A stretch of 64,000 nt of DNA from Streptomyces megasporus (GTDB taxonomy: Bacteria > Actinomycetota > Actinomycetes > Streptomycetales > Streptomycetaceae). The notes under the pieces were generated by a model. The model had not been told where the DNA came from. It was given only the letters and a program-made list of their open reading frames with translations, and made no database searches. The stretch lies in the NCBI RefSeq assembly GCF_000718985.1, contig NZ_JODL01000016.1:124001-188000 (forward strand), read 5' to 3'. Made by a program: the position numbers and the translations under genes. The stretch's first letter is position 1. The number at the start of each line of letters is the position of its first letter. Shown piece after piece: positions 5,854 to 12,863 of the stretch.

Positions 5854-8799
5854 ATGGACGGCGAGGGGCACACGGGACGCGAGCGACAGCAGTCGGACAA
5901 CCGCCACCACCGGCTGCGTTTCGCCGTGCTGGGGCCCGTGCGCGCCTGGCGCGACGGCGAGGCCGTGGGCGTCGGCTCCCCGCAGCAGCGCGCCCTGCTG
6001 GCGGCCCTGCTGTTGCGCGGCGGGCAGACGGCCACCGCACAGGAGCTGGTGGGCGCGCTGTGGGGCGAGGAACCGCCGCAGCGGGCCCTGGCCGCGCTGC
6101 GCACCTACGCCTCGCGGCTGCGCAAGGTGCTGGGCTCCGAGGCTCTGATCAGCGAGTCCGGCGGCTACGCGATCCGGCTGGGGCCGGACACCGAACTGGA
6201 CGTGGACGCGGCCGGCGCGTGCGTCGCCGAGGCGGAGAAGGCCGCCGCGGAGGGCGACCACCACCGGGCGCGGGGGCTGTACGACGCGGCACTGGCCCGG
6301 TGGGACGGCGAGACGCTCGCCTCGGTGCCGGGGCCGTACGCCGAGAACCAGCGGACCCGGCTGGAGGAGTGGCGGCTGTCCCTGCTGGAGCACCGTCTCG
6401 ACCTCGACCTGCGGCTGGGCTTCCACGCGGAGGCCGTCGGCGAGCTGACCGCCCTGACCGTCGAGCACCCGTTGCGCGAACGGCTGCGGGAGCTGCTGAT
6501 GCTGGCGCTGTACCGCAGCGGCCGGCAGGCCGAGGCGCTGGCCGTCTACGCCGACACCCGCCGGCTGCTCGCCGAGGAGCTGGGCGTGGACCCCCGCCCG
6601 GAGCTGGCGGAGCTCCAGCAGCGCATCCTCCAGGCCGACGAGGAACTCGCCCGGCCTGCCGAGGAGTCAGCGCCCCAGGGCGGGGTCACCTTCGTGCGTC
6701 CCGCCCAACTCCCGGCCACCGTGCCGGACTTCACCGGCCGGGCCGCCTTCGTGACCGAGTTGGGCGACCAGTTGGTCACCGCCGAGTCCAGGATCATGGC
6801 CGTCTCGGCGGTCGCGGGCATCGGCGGGGTCGGCAAGACCACCCTGGCCATCCACGTCGCCCACGCCGCCCGTGACCGGTTCCCCGACGGCCAGCTCTAC
6901 GTCGACCTCCAGGGCGCCGGGCGGTCCCCGGCCGAGCCGGAGACCGTCCTCGGCGCCTTCCTGCGCGCCCTGGGCACCCCCGACTCCGCGATCCCCGAGG
7001 GGCTGGAGGAGCGGGCCGCGCTCTACCGCTCGCTGCTGGCCGGCCGCCGCATCCTGACCCTGCTGGACAACGCCCGCGACGCCGCCCAGGTCCGTCCCCT
7101 GCTGCCCGGCACCGAGGGCTGCGCCGCGCTGATCACCAGCCGGGTGCGGATGGTGGACCTGGCCGGCGCGCACCTGGTGGACCTGGACGTCATGAGCCCC
7201 GAGGAGGCCATGACGCTGTTCACGAAGATCCTCGGCGAGGAGCGGGTCCACGCGGAGCGCGAGGCCGCCATGGACGTGGTCGCCGCCTGCGGCTTCCTGC
7301 CGCTGGCCATCCGCATCGCCGCCTCCCGGTTGGCCGCCCGCCGCACCTGGACGGTCTCGGTGCTGGCCCGCAAGCTCGCCGACGAACGCCGCCGGCTGGA
7401 CGAGCTCCAGGCCGGCGACCAGGCGGTCAAGGCCACCTTCGAGCTGGGCTACGGCCAGTTGGAGCCCGGCCAGGCCCGCGCCTTCCGCCTGCTGAGCCTG
7501 GCCGACGGCCCGGACATCTCCGTGCACGCCGCCGCCGCCCTGCTGGACCGTCCTCCGGAGGAGACCGAGGACCTGCTGGAGTCCCTGGTCGACATCTCCC
7601 TGCTGGAGTCCGCGGCGCCGGGCCGCTACCGCTTCCACGACCTGGTGCGGCTCTACGCCCGCACCTGTGCCGAGCGCGACGAGTCCCCGACCGTCCGGGA
7701 GGCGGCCCTCTCCCGGCTGCTGGACTTCCACCTCGCCACCGCGACCGGGGTGTTCGCCCTGGAGCGCCCCGGCGACCGCACGGCGGAGCACCTGGCGGCC
7801 ACCGAGCACCCCGGTCTGGTCTTCGCCGACCGCGCCGCCGCGCTGGACTGGCTGTTCGCCGAGGCCGACTGCCTGCTGGCCTGCGTGGAGCAGTCGGCCG
7901 GCGGCGCCACGCTGCGCCGCGCGACCGACCTGTTGCTGGCCACCCGCGACCTGGCCGAGTCCGGGGTCAACTCGCCGCGTTACGAACGGGCCGCCCTCGC
8001 CGTCTGCGAGGCCGCGCGGGCGGCCGGGGACGCCTGGGCCGAAGGCCGCGCCCGGCTGAACCTCACCCACGCCTACAGCGTCTCGGGACGCTTCGAGCAG
8101 GCCGACCAGGAGGCCCAGCGGGCCATGGTGCTCGCGCTGACGACGGGCGATCCCGTGCCGAGCTGCCACGCGCCGAACGAGCGCGGCATCATCGCCATCT
8201 ACCGGAACCGACAGGAGAAGGGCGACGCCCTGCTGAACCAGGCCATCGCCGCGTTCCGCGCCGACGGCAACCGCGTCGGCGAGGCGAGCGCCCTGTGCAA
8301 CCTCTCCCGGATCCATCTCGCGCTGGGCCGCAAGGCCAGTGCGATCAAGCTCGCGGAACAGGGCGTGGGGATCTACACGGAGATGGGGCTCAACAGGCGG
8401 CTGGCCAACGCTCGTTACGCGCTGGGGATGGCGCTGACCGGTGCCGGGCGCACCGCCGAGGCCCTCGACCAGCTCGCCCGGGCCCTCACCGCCTTCCACG
8501 AGAGCCGCCAGCCGCTGTGGGAGGGCGTCACCCACTTCCGGCTGGCCGAGGCCCACCTCCAGGCGGGGCGCCCCGCGCAGGCCGCGACCCACGCCGAGCA
8601 GGCCCTCGCCCTGCGCGGCATCGGAGGCGAGTGGCGGCGCGGAACCGTGCTGACGGTCCTGGGGCGGGCCCTCGACGCACTGGGGCAGACGGACCGCGCC
8701 CGCGCCTGCTGGCAGGACGCGCTGAAGATCTTCGACGCCCTGGAGTCGCCCGAGGCGGTGGAGGTCCGAGAACTCCTCTCGCCCGTCATCGCCGCGTGA
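5854..8799 (+). CDS. afsR: AfsR, SARP-family ATPase transcriptional regulator
   Basis: 981 residues, close to the 993 of S. coelicolor AfsR. Domains in order: winged-helix OmpR-type DNA-binding domain (about 22-110), bacterial transcriptional activation domain (about 115-265), NB-ARC-type ATPase with P-loop GIGGVGKTT near residue 322 and LTLLDNARD as the probable Walker B, then C-terminal helical repeats of TPR type to the end. In S. coelicolor AfsR is phosphorylated by AfsK and activates afsS, raising antibiotic production. The neighbours here (afsS directly downstream, afsK and kbpA beyond) support the same role. GCAGGGGG precedes the ATG. The protein has no membrane segment. Confidence 0.95.
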   Translation: MDGEGHTGRERQQSDNRHHRLRFAVLGPVRAWRDGEAVGVGSPQQRALLAALLLRGGQTATAQELVGALWGEEPPQRALAALRTYASRLRKVLGSEALISESGGYAIRLGPDTELDVDAAGACVAEAEKAAAEGDHHRARGLYDAALARWDGETLASVPGPYAENQRTRLEEWRLSLLEHRLDLDLRLGFHAEAVGELTALTVEHPLRERLRELLMLALYRSGRQAEALAVYADTRRLLAEELGVDPRPELAELQQRILQADEELARPAEESAPQGGVTFVRPAQLPATVPDFTGRAAFVTELGDQLVTAESRIMAVSAVAGIGGVGKTTLAIHVAHAARDRFPDGQLYVDLQGAGRSPAEPETVLGAFLRALGTPDSAIPEGLEERAALYRSLLAGRRILTLLDNARDAAQVRPLLPGTEGCAALITSRVRMVDLAGAHLVDLDVMSPEEAMTLFTKILGEERVHAEREAAMDVVAACGFLPLAIRIAASRLAARRTWTVSVLARKLADERRRLDELQAGDQAVKATFELGYGQLEPGQARAFRLLSLADGPDISVHAAAALLDRPPEETEDLLESLVDISLLESAAPGRYRFHDLVRLYARTCAERDESPTVREAALSRLLDFHLATATGVFALERPGDRTAEHLAATEHPGLVFADRAAALDWLFAEADCLLACVEQSAGGATLRRATDLLLATRDLAESGVNSPRYERAALAVCEAARAAGDAWAEGRARLNLTHAYSVSGRFEQADQEAQRAMVLALTTGDPVPSCHAPNERGIIAIYRNRQEKGDALLNQAIAAFRADGNRVGEASALCNLSRIHLALGRKASAIKLAEQGVGIYTEMGLNRRLANARYALGMALTGAGRTAEALDQLARALTAFHESRQPLWEGVTHFRLAEAHLQAGRPAQAATHAEQALALRGIGGEWRRGTVLTVLGRALDALGQTDRARACWQDALKIFDALESPEAVEVRELLSPVIAA

Positions 8800-8894
8800 C
8801 GAGCCCCGCGGCGACCGCGTCGAGCACGTGTCGGGCACGTGTCGGGGCGGGTCGGAGGGTGGGGCGGGGAGCGGATCGAGGGCAGACCGAGGGC

Positions 8895-8936
8895 GTTCAT
8901 CGATTGTTTATCGACGCCCACCATGCTTGTACAAGC
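8895..8936 (+). promoter_or_regulatory. Candidate AfsR-binding direct repeats, -10 and start-site palindrome of afsS
   Basis: Two adjacent 11-mers, GTTCATCGATT (8895-8905) and GTTTATCGACG (8906-8916), differ at three places. SARP activators are known to bind heptamer direct repeats at 11-base spacing, the downstream one about 8 bases before the -10. Here CATGCT (8922-8927) lies 9 bases after the heptamer GTTTATC. A perfect 12-base palindrome GCTTGTACAAGC (8925-8936) overlaps the -10 and the expected start of transcription. If correct, the afsS leader is about 160 bases long. Confidence 0.65.
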
Positions 8937-9092
8937 CGATCCGTCGCATCGGGGGGCAGACGGATCGACCGGGGCGGACGTCCCGATCCTCGGGACAGGG
9001 GGGACGACCCCGGGCACCCGTCCGGCGGCCCACGGGGGAGCCGCCGGACGGACCGGACCGATTCGCCACCACAGCAAGGAGTCCAACTTCCG

Positions 9093-9242
9093 ATGACCAC
9101 CGACAACGACTTCCAGACCCAGGACAGCCACGCCTCGGGCGGGGGGCAGGACGGCGCCGCTGCGGACGAGGCGAAGACCTACAAGCCCGGCGGCGGGCCC
9201 AGCAAGGGCGACAGCCACGCCTCGGGCGAGGGCGCCAGGTAA
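9093..9242 (+). CDS. afsS: AfsS-like small regulator (49 aa) with two D-S-H-A-S repeats
   Basis: A 49-residue hydrophilic, acidic, glycine-rich protein with no signal peptide. QDSHASGGG (residues 10-18) and GDSHASGEG (39-47) are near copies. AAGGAG lies about 10 bases before the ATG. S. coelicolor AfsS is a 63-residue protein encoded immediately downstream of afsR, needed for AfsR-dependent stimulation of antibiotic synthesis; its biochemical mode is not settled. Identification here rests on position, size, repeats and the AfsR-like direct repeats upstream; I cannot align it to known AfsS. Confidence 0.75.
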   Translation: MTTDNDFQTQDSHASGGGQDGAAADEAKTYKPGGGPSKGDSHASGEGAR

Positions 9243-9472
9243 ATCCGACCGGACCACGTTTCCTCGGGGGAGTACAGGGGCCGGCAAGGCGGCAGAGGGG
9301 GGCCGTCATGCTGGTCCCTGTGCCATTCCCGGTGATCGCTGCCCCGAGTGCGCAAAACCGCCAGTCTTCGACTGTTTCCAGCCTGAAGTTCCCGCCCGAA
9401 GATCGAACGCTCGTCCACCCGTCGCTAAGTTACCCAGGCACGGGAACACCGTTCCGCACAGAGGAGTCGAAC

Positions 9473-9655
9473 ATGCCTCGTCCCAAGAGGATCCTCGCGG
9501 CCTTCGCCATCGCCGCGGCCATGGTGAGCGGCGTGGCCGCGCCGGCCGTGGCGGACACCCACGCGTCGGTCGCGCCGCAGGCCGATGATCACGCTTCCGC
9601 CCCCTGGTCGGACGACCGGGCGTCGAGTCCCGAGAGGGACACCCACGCCTCCTGA
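9473..9655 (+). CDS. Small exported protein with D-x-H/R-A-S repeats
   Basis: 60 residues. Residues 1-27 form a Sec signal peptide (MPRPKR, a hydrophobic Ala-rich core, then AVA as the cleavage box). The mature peptide would be only 33 residues and consists largely of four repeats: DTHAS (28-32), DDHAS (38-42), DDRAS (47-51) and DTHAS at the extreme C-terminus (56-60). The same pentad occurs twice in the AfsS-like protein 230 bases upstream. GAGGAG lies 7 bases before the ATG. A strong terminator follows. The function is unknown. Its place suggests a link to the Afs module, but that is inference. Confidence 0.72.
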   Translation: MPRPKRILAAFAIAAAMVSGVAAPAVADTHASVAPQADDHASAPWSDDRASSPERDTHAS

Positions 9656-9667
9656 GGCGGTCGGACG

Positions 9668-9717
9668 GACACGTCGAGGGGTGGGGCCGGTTCTCCGGCC
9701 CCACCCCTCGACGTGTC
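9668..9717 (+). terminator. Strong bidirectional terminator
   Basis: Perfect 23-bp stem (9668-9690 with 9695-9717) closed by the loop TTCT, located between converging genes ending at 9655 and 9751, so it can serve both strands. Confidence 0.9.
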
Positions 9718-9750
9718 GTTCCCGTCCCGCGGCGTCCCGCCCGCGTCGAC

Positions 9751-10236
9751 TCAGACGACGTCGTCGATGCGGCAGGCGTCCACCCGGTGCACCGGTACCC
9801 GGTCCGGCTCCAGCTCGACGCGCTTGGTGGCACCGGACTTCAGACTCACGCGCCTGGAGCCGGTGTCCACGACCTCCCCGGAATCGTCGAGGAAGTCGAC
9901 GTGGACCGTGAACGTCTCCGTCCTGCCCCGGGAGACCAGCTCGACCACCGTCTTCCCGCCCGTGGCGGCACAACTGACGATCCTGGCGTCCGGCTCGCGG
10001 CTCCTGGAGGAGGAACCGGAGCCGGAGGAACCGCTGCCGCCGGTGGTGGAGTTGTACCGGTAGCCGCCGTTGTAGCGCGAGCTGCTGGACTTGTCCTTGC
10101 CGCACCCCCCGCCGCCACTGCCGCCGCCGCTCCTGCTCCCGCCGCCCTTGCCCCCGCCGCTGCGGGCGAGGTTGAACCCGGACAGGGCCATCACCACGAC
10201 GGTGACGACGGCTATCAGCTTCAGATGACGCTTCAC
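9751..10236 (-). CDS. Secreted or membrane-anchored hypothetical protein, Gly/Ser-rich linker
   Basis: 161 residues. The N-terminal segment KLIAVVTVVVMALSGFNLA (residues 6-24) is a signal or anchor helix. A Gly/Ser-rich low-complexity linker spans about 26-80. The C-terminal half (about 82-161) has alternating hydrophobic strands and two cysteines (about 88 and 154) and looks like a small beta-sandwich, as in proteins that stabilise at the cell surface. GTG start with GGGGGAG 7 bases upstream. It lies between afsS and afsK, as does an uncharacterised gene in S. coelicolor. Not recognised beyond this. Confidence 0.75.
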   Translation of the reverse strand: MKRHLKLIAVVTVVVMALSGFNLARSGGGKGGGSRSGGGSGGGGCGKDKSSSSRYNGGYRYNSTTGGSGSSGSGSSSRSREPDARIVSCAATGGKTVVELVSRGRTETFTVHVDFLDDSGEVVDTGSRRVSLKSGATKRVELEPDRVPVHRVDACRIDDVV

Positions 10237-10361: not shown

Positions 10362-12863
10362 TCAGGAACGGGCCTGTCCGGTTCCCTTCGCCGCGTCCAG
10401 GGCGTACACGCAGCGGTCCCGGCTGCACGCGTAGACCACTCCGCCCGTCACCACCGGGGAACCGGTGATCTCGCCGTCCGTGGCGAGTTTCCAGCGGAGC
10501 CGGCCCCCGACCGCGTCCAGCGTGTACAGGCAGTGGTCCGCCGAGCCGAAGTGGACGCGGCCGTCCGCCACGACCGGGGCCCCGGTGATCTCGCCGCCCG
10601 TCGCGAAGCGCCAGCGCGGGGTGCCGCTGACCGCGTCCAGCGTGTAGAGCGCGCCGCCGCTGCCGAGGTGGACCAGCCCGTCGGCCACCACCACCGGCTC
10701 GGTGGACTGGCGGGCCTCCGTGGCGATCCGCCAGCGGTCGTGGCCGTTGGCCGCGTCCAGCGCGTACACCGTGCCCAGGTAGTCCGCCAGGTAGACGCCG
10801 CCGCCCGCGATCGCCGCGCCCGGGACGAACGTGGGCGGGCACAGGAACGCGGCGGGCGCGTCGAAGCGCCACCGCTCCGTGCCGGCGGCCGCGTCCAGCG
10901 CGAAGACCCGCGAGCCCGCGCTCACGTACACCGCCCCGTCGTCGGCGGGCAGCAGCCGCACCGCGACCCCGCCGGTCACCGAGGTGTCCCCGACCGGGTA
11001 CGACCACCGCTCGGCGCCCGAGCGCGCGTCCAGGGCGTACAGCCGTCCGTCGCCCCAGACGTAGACCGTGCCCGCCCGGATCACCGGGCCGCCCTCGGGG
11101 GTCTCGAAGTCCGTCTGCGCGCCCGACAGCTCCCACAGGCGCTCGCCGGTCGCGGCCTCCCACGCCTGGACGCCTCCGCCCCGGGTGGCCGTGACGACCG
11201 TGCCGCGGTCGGCCCGCAGCGCGTACACCCAGCCCTCCGCCGGCAGCCGCCAGCGCTCGGAGCCGTCCCTGGCGTCCAGCGCGTAGAGGCTGGGGCCGTC
11301 GGAGGCGTGCACCCGACCGTTGTCGACGGTCATCGACCACGCCACCTCGCGGGTCTTGAACTGCCGCCGGCCGGTCGCCACGTCCAGCGCGTGGACCTCG
11401 AAGGAGGTGACGTAGAGCAGGCCGTCCGCGACGATCGGCGTGCCCCACACGTCGTTGGACATCCTAAAGCGCCACGGCCGCCAGCGCGCCGGCGCGGCGG
11501 TGTCCTCCCGGGGCGGCGGGTGGGCCGCGGTCGCGCCGAGGCCGGCCGTGCCGGCCGTGCCGGGACCACCGCCCGACGCGCGCAGCACCCACGACGTGGC
11601 GCCGCCGACCTCGGGCCGCCGGCCCAGCGCGCGCCGCGGGCCGGGACCGATCGGCACCTGGGCGCCCGGCAGCCGCACGGGTCCGTCGTGGGGGGCGTAC
11701 GCCGGGGCGTGAGGTGGCGGCGGGGGCACGGTGCGGGGCGGGGCGGCCACCACGGCGGACGCTCCCCCGCCGCGCGGATCGGCGACCGGGGGGCGCCAGT
11801 CGGGAGCGGGCCCCGCGCTCGCCACGGCCGGTGCGGGCGAGTGCTCCGGCTGCCGGTGGCCGTGTTCAGCATGGCGTTCGGGGTGGGGTTCCGGGTGGGG
11901 TTCGGGACGCGGCTCCGGCTCCGGCCGGGGCTCGGGGTTCGGCGCGGGCGGGCGGACGGGTCTCGACCGGCCGCCCCGGTGCCGTTCGATCAGTTCCACG
12001 GCGCCGGCCGGCAACCACGCCGAGGCCGTGCCGCTGTCGTCCCCGCCCGAGGAGAACAGGTGCGGGGCGAGCTGGGCCTGGAGGTCCGCCGGGGTGGGCC
12101 GCTGCTCGGGCTCCATCCGCATGCAGGACTCGATGAGCGGCCGCAGCTCGTCGGGCAGCCCTTCCAGGTCGGGGCCCTCGCGGAGCAGCATGAAGACCGT
12201 CTCGACCGGGTTGGCGCCGTGGTAGGGAGGGTGGCCGGTGGCGGCGAACACCAGGGTCGAGCCGAGGGAGAAGACGTCGCTGGCGCCCGTCACACTGCGT
12301 GAGTCCCGCGCCTGCTCGGGCGACATGTAGGAGGGGGTGCCGACGGCCACGTTGGTCATCGTCAGTCGGGTGTTGGACACCCCGGAGGCGATGCCGAAGT
12401 CGATCACCCGCGGGCCGTCCTCCACCACCAGCACGTTGGAGGGCTTCAGGTCGCGGTGGACCAGGCCCGCCCCGTGGATGGACTGGAGCGCCTCGGCGAC
12501 CCCGGCGGCCAGCCAGCGGACGGCCTGCGCCGGGAGCGGCCCGCACTCGTTGACTATCTCCTCCAGGGAGGGCGCGGGCACGTACGCCGTCGCCAGCCAC
12601 GGCACCGCGGCACGCGGGTCGGCGTCCACCACGGCGGCCGTGTAGAAGCCGCTGACGGCGCGGGCCGCCTCCACCTCGCGGGTGAAGCGGACGCGGAACA
12701 GTTGGTCCTCGGCGAGTTCGGAGCGCACCGTCTTGATCGCCACGCGCCGCCCGGACGCCGAGCGGGCGAGGTAGACCAGCCCCATGCCTCCGGCGCCGAG
12801 TCGGCCGAGCACCTCGAACGGGCCGATCCGCCGCGGATCGTGCTGCGTAAGCTGCTCCACCAC
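10362..12863 (-). CDS. afsK: AfsK, Ser/Thr protein kinase with C-terminal PQQ-type propeller
   Basis: 833 residues. The kinase domain (about 14-275) shows the glycine loop [16 protein letters not shown] (Lys44), HRDLKPSN (Asp138), DFG (Asp155) and [10 protein letters not shown]. Thr168 sits in the activation loop, the position reported for AfsK autophosphorylation in S. coelicolor. A Pro/Arg-rich linker (about 280-470) leads to a set of PQQ-like blades with repeated YALDA-x-G-x-E-R-W motifs to the C-terminus. No membrane helix is seen. The kinase phosphorylates AfsR in the known pathway; S-adenosylmethionine enhances it and KbpA restrains it. GTG start preceded by GGGGAGG. The kbpA candidate lies 180 bases upstream on the same strand. 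Confidence 0.94.

Follow-up and report, generated by a model that had tools for sequence, protein, structure and literature searches.

The AfsS-like protein and a putative exported peptide encoded directly behind afsR in Streptomyces carry a shared five-residue motif (pentad), and the pentads of the two proteins coevolve while being kept one residue apart, with identity avoided; the AfsS pentad in turn coevolves with residues of the TPR domain of AfsR, a global activator of antibiotic production. These patterns emerged from an entirely computational analysis, with signal peptides called by simple sequence rules, of a 64,000-nt stretch of the S. megasporus genome (contig NZ_JODL01000016.1, positions 124,001 to 188,000; hereafter the window, numbered from its first letter) and of related loci. 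We think it probable that the AfsR TPR domain binds the pentad, with AfsS as its source inside the cell and the exported one-residue variant re-imported as a peptide signal.

In the window, afsR (5854..8799, forward strand, 981 residues) is followed on the same strand by an afsS-like gene (9093..9242), whose 49-residue product has no signal peptide and carries DSHAS twice, and by a gene (9473..9655) for a 60-residue precursor with a predicted 27-residue signal peptide (basic n-region, hydrophobic core and AVA site) and a 33-residue mature part bearing DTHAS, DDHAS, DDRAS and, at its carboxyl terminus, DTHAS. The initial annotation had described both proteins in these terms, and both descriptions held; its proposal of an AfsR-linked pair, one member inside the cell and one outside, is supported, at the level of sequence comparison, by the coevolution described below, and for the exported peptide we infer the signal role that it had suggested. 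GGAG precedes the start codon of both genes. Although neither Pfam nor NCBIfam contains a match for the 49-residue protein, it fits the AfsS type as a small repeat protein encoded directly 3′ of afsR and behind an afs box, the AfsR operator of afsS. This box (8892..8917, forward strand, two 11-bp direct repeats, GGCGTTCATCGATTGTTTATCGACGC) scored 41 bits, where shuffled sequence had a median of -29, and one was present upstream of afsS in 217/217 loci examined, with a matrix refined on those same loci. A codon pattern for D-x-H-A-S, restricted to TCN serine codons, matched five times in the window, always within these two genes, whereas shuffled windows gave a mean of 1.19 and reached five in 1 of 100 cases. 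Across the 5.85-Mb genome, both strands together, such matches number 47, and five of these fall within this ~530-bp stretch. The initial annotation had named wide occurrence of the repeats in unrelated streptomycete proteins as a ground for rejecting its proposal; within this genome the pentad has no such spread.

When 5.8 billion proteins were searched with one or the other small protein as a single query, only the query itself came back, and scanning 150 genomes with the single 60-residue protein returned mainly chance-level matches, so that a 25-row profile was needed. Met1, Ala25 and Ala27 are invariant in the alignment of its 25 chosen family members. Among 7,988 scored candidates this profile matched 18 proteins at E ≤ 1, including that of the window; most are annotated as hypothetical proteins, and the Streptomyces represented include S. 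platensis, S. armeniacus and S. lydicamycinicus. Of 20 loci that the first profile scan brought in (window included), 18 also held an AfsR C-terminus. One scan of named genomes and further scans of Streptomyces genomes together yielded 237 AfsR-type loci, the window among them, a sample that leans towards relatives of the window AfsR because the listed loci are mostly its best matches; two loci without an AfsR C-terminus were dropped. An AfsS-type repeat protein occurs in 217 of the remaining 235, with a median of three pentad copies (range 1-9) and with L071 and L087 excluded for wrong frame. Exported open reading frames (ORFs) were called with a motif-blind filter based on signal-peptide features, ribosome site and codon bias, which none passed at 161 of the 235 loci; the other 74 were reduced to 69 by removing five with near-identical AfsR, and to 64 non-redundant loci by discarding five ORFs (L100, L156, L198, L220 and L224) that looked unrelated on visual inspection. 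The order of afsS followed by an exported-peptide gene behind afsR recurs in Streptomyces, and the exported gene is widespread but patchy, standing beside afsR in dozens of genomes other than that of S. megasporus; its absence from all relatives, which the initial annotation had named as a ground for rejecting its proposal, is thereby contradicted. As a separate observation, AfsS motifs are hypervariable among species yet repeated within a protein, even at loci without a filter-passing exported partner.

Across the 64 loci, with the exported pentad picked without sight of its AfsS partner, own-genome pairs shared 3.36 of five residues versus 1.91 for permuted partners (0/20,000 permutations), and at each of the five positions own-pair identity exceeded all permutations. 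Disjoint sister contrasts pointed the same way, with 17 of 32 for, 2 against and 13 tied (p = 7e-4), or 18 for, 4 against and 10 tied when scored with BLOSUM (p = 0.004). With the five ORFs excluded by eye kept in, the ungapped score still gave 0/20,000, and sister contrasts came to 22 for, 9 against and 3 tied (p = 0.029). The pairing extends to unusual changes made jointly in AfsS and its exported partner (ERNQT/ERNST, DSNRP/DNNRP, DNYGT/DNWGT, DSWAT/DSWST, DHYAS/DHYSS and DHHQT/DFHQT) and persists where the histidine is lost, as in DSNRP/DNNRP.

The match is rarely exact. Three of the 64 loci have no exported copy with at least 3/5 identity to the AfsS motif (L116, L207 and L238); in the 61 that do, the best pair differs at one position in 47, at two in 13 and at none in 1, where 13.6 identical pairs would be expected if positions were independent. 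A later set of 47 loci, reduced to 36 by the loss of 7 without an AfsR C-terminus and 4 without a passing exported ORF, and to 34 by removal of L312 (wrong ORF) and L326 (a duplicate of the first set), contained no identical pair (0/34) against 8.5 expected; it counts as fresh material for testing the motif rule and the residue code, but not membership in the exported family, because the profile was partly built from first-set proteins, and some of its loci are closely related to each other (for example L315 and L317). Combining the 95 matched loci, 76 pairs were one residue off, 18 two off and 1 identical, compared with 22.5 ± 2.7 exact pairs expected. This is not one fixed difference, because the differing residue in the 76 one-off pairs lies variously at position 4 (33 pairs), 2 (17), 5 (11), 3 (8) or 1 (7). 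Within proteins, by contrast, at least two AfsS copies agree exactly in every one of the 61 multi-copy genomes, as do two exported copies in 24 of 37.

We examined which part of AfsR changes with the pentad in 211 of the 217 loci, using 105 disjoint sister pairs. The partial correlation of motif change with domain divergence was clear for the TPR sensor domain (residues 766-981, encoded at 8149..8796 on the forward strand; r 0.39, p = 4e-5), our proposed pentad receptor on account of this TPR-specific covariation, and absent for the SARP, NOD and equally fast arm domains; a logistic model holding the arm and the rest of the protein was improved by adding TPR (p = 2e-4). The strongest window within AfsR was residues 820-859 (r 0.45, p = 1e-6). 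Outside TPR, the partial correlation was also positive in one NOD window (residues 505-544; r 0.31, p = 0.0013) and was negative in several windows of SARP and NOD, the lowest value being -0.39 at residues 295-334. The TPR effect was seen in sister pairs inside and outside the exported-gene set, indicating that the AfsS-AfsR coupling does not require the exported gene.

At residue level, AfsR position 783 (codon 8200-8202) is Tyr in 148/150 genomes whose pentad has S or T at position 5 and in 0/48 with P, a tally that leaves aside 13 of the 211 loci with neither, and position 928 (codon 8635-8637) is Arg in 150/150 and 6/48, respectively. Raw tallies of this kind overstate the number of independent events because the species are related; among nine independent contrasts at 783, eight differ, all in the same direction, and 4 of 512 orientation flips were equally consistent at any site. 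The exported pentad, again chosen blind, ends in P in 3/42 genomes with Tyr783 and in 16/20 others (2 of the 64 loci are not in the alignment). Other pairings in the main set link Asn at motif position 1 with Lys849 (14/23 Asn motifs versus 0/188 others), position 2 with AfsR 772/776 and position 4 with AfsR 782, the last in a sister-pair test with a family-wise error rate (FWER) of 0/300; His at position 3 paired strongly with Tyr841. The later loci, comprising 35 rows with L326 included and residue 783 readable in 34, kept the rules for Tyr783 (11/12 with S/T, 0/22 with P) and Arg928 (12/12 and 1/23), and largely kept that for 849, with Lys in 3/4 Asn motifs and Arg in 31/31 D/E motifs. A stratified sister-pair scan at FWER ≤ 0.05 returned six sites, five in TPR (815, 837, 782, 820 and 888) and one in NOD (453).

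Exported pentads often sit at the extreme C-terminus or immediately after the signal-peptidase site, positions from which proteolysis could free short peptides. In 26/64 loci the final five residues match the AfsS motif of the same locus (6.6 ± 2.1 for permuted motifs), and the motif directly follows an A/V/S/T/G-x-A/G triplet in 33/64, with both ends occupied in 12/64; under a strict rule, A-x-A at residues 20-32 with the motif directly after, the count is 22/64. We propose that the C-terminal TPR superhelix of AfsR would serve as receptor for a species-specific pentad ligand, consensus D-x-H-x-[S/T or P], supplied in two forms both encoded beside afsR. AfsS, cytoplasmic and made from an AfsR-activated promoter with 1-9 pentad copies, would be the intracellular feedback ligand. 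The adjacent gene would yield a Sec-type precursor, mostly with 1-6 copies and a pentad nearly always different at one residue, from which freed peptides would be returned by an oligopeptide importer and vie with AfsS for a single groove of AfsR. By that one differing residue AfsR could discriminate between the imported signal and AfsS, its own product, much as PrgX distinguishes activating from inhibiting peptides, and our guess on sign is that the imported form would be the inducer and AfsS a modulator. Gene order, a signal-peptide-like N-terminus, motif coevolution, identity avoidance and coevolution of the AfsS pentad with TPR were computed directly; that AfsR binds the pentad itself, that the peptide is exported, processed and re-imported, and which sign each effect has, we infer. 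The in-step change of both pentads with the AfsR sensor suggests that the trigger of AfsR may be a small peptide.

The proposal resembles the RRNPP(A) systems (Rap-Phr, NprR-NprX and PlcR-PapR) in having an adjacent small gene for a predicted Sec-type propeptide (at 9473-9655 in the window and in the 64 non-redundant loci), a motif that is often C-terminal and often repeated, a species-specific ligand of pentapeptide size and, as proposed here, a cytoplasmic TPR receptor; PMC11343458 describes propeptides that hold several pheromones, a precedent for the repeated motif. It differs in that the receptor is a SARP/NB-ARC (STAND) activator and not a helix-turn-helix (HTH) or Rap protein, that a second, cytoplasmic protein, AfsS, would present the ligand, and that the host is an actinomycete in which import and binding are presumed. 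The AlphaFold model of AfsR residues 602-981 (mean predicted local distance difference test score, 93) superposes on the Rap and NprR pheromone receptors over 317-324 residues, and equally on other TPR proteins. When residues 583-981 were compared with PDB sequences by phmmer, the 18 matches at E ≤ 1 were AfsR, LGN/Pins, other TPR proteins and a few unrelated chains, with no RRNPP chain among them. A SARP is reportedly able to respond to peptidyl ligands in the case of NosP (a report cited in PMC10972967), which is said to regulate nosiheptide production and to respond to ligands derived from that precursor peptide. NosP is, by the title of its report, a SARP regulator with a peptide response as proposed for AfsR, but its ligands would come from the nosiheptide precursor whereas here there would be a dedicated exported pentad. 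The ligands of PrgX are both secreted peptides, unlike the present case, in which one ligand would be a multi-copy cytoplasmic protein. According to PMC5552905, activating and inhibiting peptides bind the same receptor domain of PrgX (pCF10) with opposite outcomes, a precedent for the proposed AfsS/exported pair.

With the AfsK-AfsR-AfsS cascade of S. coelicolor the locus shares AfsR and AfsK equivalogs and the afs box. S. coelicolor AfsS has three repeats of 12 amino acids, and such short tandem repeats are thought crucial for activity (passages of PMC2267785). What sets the present proposal apart is the putative exported partner, together with the ligand role proposed for the AfsS repeat; neither an exported AfsS-repeat peptide nor an AfsR peptide ligand appeared among the top-ranked papers of full-text literature searches in a collection that lacks most subscription papers. 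PMC10936776 reports inhibition of the AfsR SARP domain by NOD and TPR, and calls it elusive whether an inducer binds the sensor domain.

Several observations weigh against our proposal. The exported ORF passed the motif-blind filter in only 74/235 afsR loci, in contrast to AfsS in 217/235, so the system cannot require the exported gene everywhere, and the exported-family profile matched at E ≤ 1e-6 in 77/392 Streptomyces genomes, some of the matches not at afsR. The motif lies at neither terminus in 17/64 loci, even by the looser triplet rule, and 7 of the 32 sister contrasts go against tracking with the ungapped score. An afs box was sought upstream of the exported gene and not found, and in 47/64 loci the 90 nt behind afsS fold strongly (z below -2); with no such box, and with a hairpin usually after afsS, co-regulation is no more than a possibility. 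On the AfsR side, the site-by-site sister-pair scan did not single out 783 or 928, its top site for motif position 1 lay in NOD (453, FWER 0.007), and coevolving positions were not enriched at groove-facing helix-A sites (p = 0.15). The pairing of Tyr841 with the motif His failed in the later loci, where 7/9 non-His motifs still had Tyr, and this part of the code was rejected. The TPR model is matched at least as well by LGN and APPBP2 as by Rap and NprR. Finally, reviews (PMC10972967) have AfsS work downstream of AfsR, on pathway activators and in a manner as yet unknown, an action that AfsS-AfsR binding alone would not explain.

Among other explanations, AfsS alone could be the AfsR ligand, with the exported AfsS-repeat protein having another role outside the cell (surface, envelope or kinase sensing) and never returning, and with the match due to descent and some other shared partner. 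AfsS-TPR covariation does hold in the 69 sister pairs whose members both lie outside the exported-gene set, and the patchiness of the exported gene and its lack of an afs box fit this explanation; however, the blind-chosen exported pentad also obeys the Tyr783 code, and it tracks AfsS through many changes at one residue's distance, which an unrelated outside role would not predict. We consider this account unlikely. A purely mutational origin of the likeness, through gene conversion or repeat exchange between neighbouring repeat genes, would explain why codon identity between AfsS and exported motifs slightly exceeds codon-usage expectation (0.782 versus 0.730, p = 0.015, 60 loci), an excess that is ambiguous alone and is also present among AfsS repeats (0.795 versus 0.693). 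But AfsS/exported similarity does not extend into the 15-nt flanks at 44 loci, where no tracts are shared beyond the motif, which makes long conversion tracts unlikely; conversion should moreover give identical pentads, yet exact pairs number only 1 in 95 although AfsS copies repeat exactly in 61/61 genomes, and covariation with AfsR TPR residues would be left unexplained, making such concerted evolution without function very unlikely.

We give still less credence to two further ideas. A free N-terminal D-x-H exposed by signal-peptide removal could form an amino-terminal copper- and nickel-binding (ATCUN) type of site, and 22/64 predicted mature N-termini do start with the motif directly after A-x-A, mostly as D/E-x-H; AfsS repeats, however, are internal and cannot be ATCUN sites, and in several lineages both partners lack the His with the pairing kept (DNGMP/DNPMP, DSNRP/DNNRP, ERNQT/ERNST and DSWAT/DSWST), so that a metal-binding role is highly improbable. 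The shared receptor might instead be the AfsK β-propeller, since afsK adjoins the cluster and propeller divergence correlates with motif change (rho 0.68, p = 0.016; 12 pairs). That correlation is gone when other domains are controlled (partial 0.21, p = 0.52), in a set of 12 pairs where TPR also lost its signal (0.01), whereas the TPR signal is clear in 105 pairs; there is scant chance that the propeller is the receptor.

Returning to pentad recognition by AfsR TPR, a fuller version, which we hold tentatively and would stop short of calling probable, is that Streptomyces may practise peptide quorum sensing through AfsR, with the exported pentapeptide as the missing inducer or anti-inducer, AfsS as a multivalent ligand of the same groove, and residues 849, 772/776, 782, 783 and 928 forming a species-specific code with the motif residues. 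If true, a residue-level ligand code could explain both the AfsR inducer and the action of AfsS, RRNPP-like peptide signalling would reach actinomycetes, and silent antibiotic clusters might be activated quite simply, with short peptides.

The product of 5854..8799 scored 1675.7 bits with the NCBIfam AfsR equivalog model NF053617 (cut-off 1430), and its Pfam domains are Trans_reg_C and BTAD (SARP) at the N-terminus, not an HTH or Rap-type domain, with NB-ARC after them and TPR; the protein thus has a SARP/NB-ARC (NOD)/arm/TPR layout. A hairpin after afsS (9268..9330, forward strand) is a possible terminator or attenuator (-52.1 kcal/mol, z -3.9 for 9243-9330). A perfect 23-bp stem-loop at 9668..9717, likely a two-way terminator closing the cluster, lies between the exported gene and a convergent gene, and folding of 9656-9730 gave -66.9 kcal/mol (z -8.5; 0/200 shuffles equally stable). 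Scanning of 8800-9800 for consensus sigma-70 promoters and T-tailed terminators found none. The convergent gene (9751..10236, reverse strand) encodes a 161-residue, Ser/Gly-rich, secreted-looking protein without a family match, which we do not count in the system, and is followed by afsK (10362..12863, reverse strand), a Ser/Thr kinase with a pyrroloquinoline quinone (PQQ) β-propeller that scored 1494 bits with NCBIfam NF053615 (cut-off 1300).

Below cut-off, AfsR also matches NCBIfam models for TPR proteins that belong to two peptide systems (HaaT, and the TPR protein of the FxSxx-COOH system), and such proteins might have peptide recognition in common with AfsR. Five loci (L076, L078, L079, L088 and L089) hold AfsR-type genes without a recognised AfsS-like repeat ORF downstream; at least some are likely paralogues, and their TPR domains may have other ligands. 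At L329 (genome G398, reverse complement 2001-2216), with neither an AfsR C-terminus nor an AfsS-like repeat ORF in the fetched ~2.8 kb, an exported precursor carries motif units of the ERNQT/DRNNT type. The ~3.2-kb locus L281 (genome G096), which has no AfsR-like match, encodes on its reverse strand (1324-1746) a longer exported protein that begins with D-x-H repeats of the same kind and ends in a Trp-rich C-terminal domain with two Cys, an architecture that may be bacteriocin-like.
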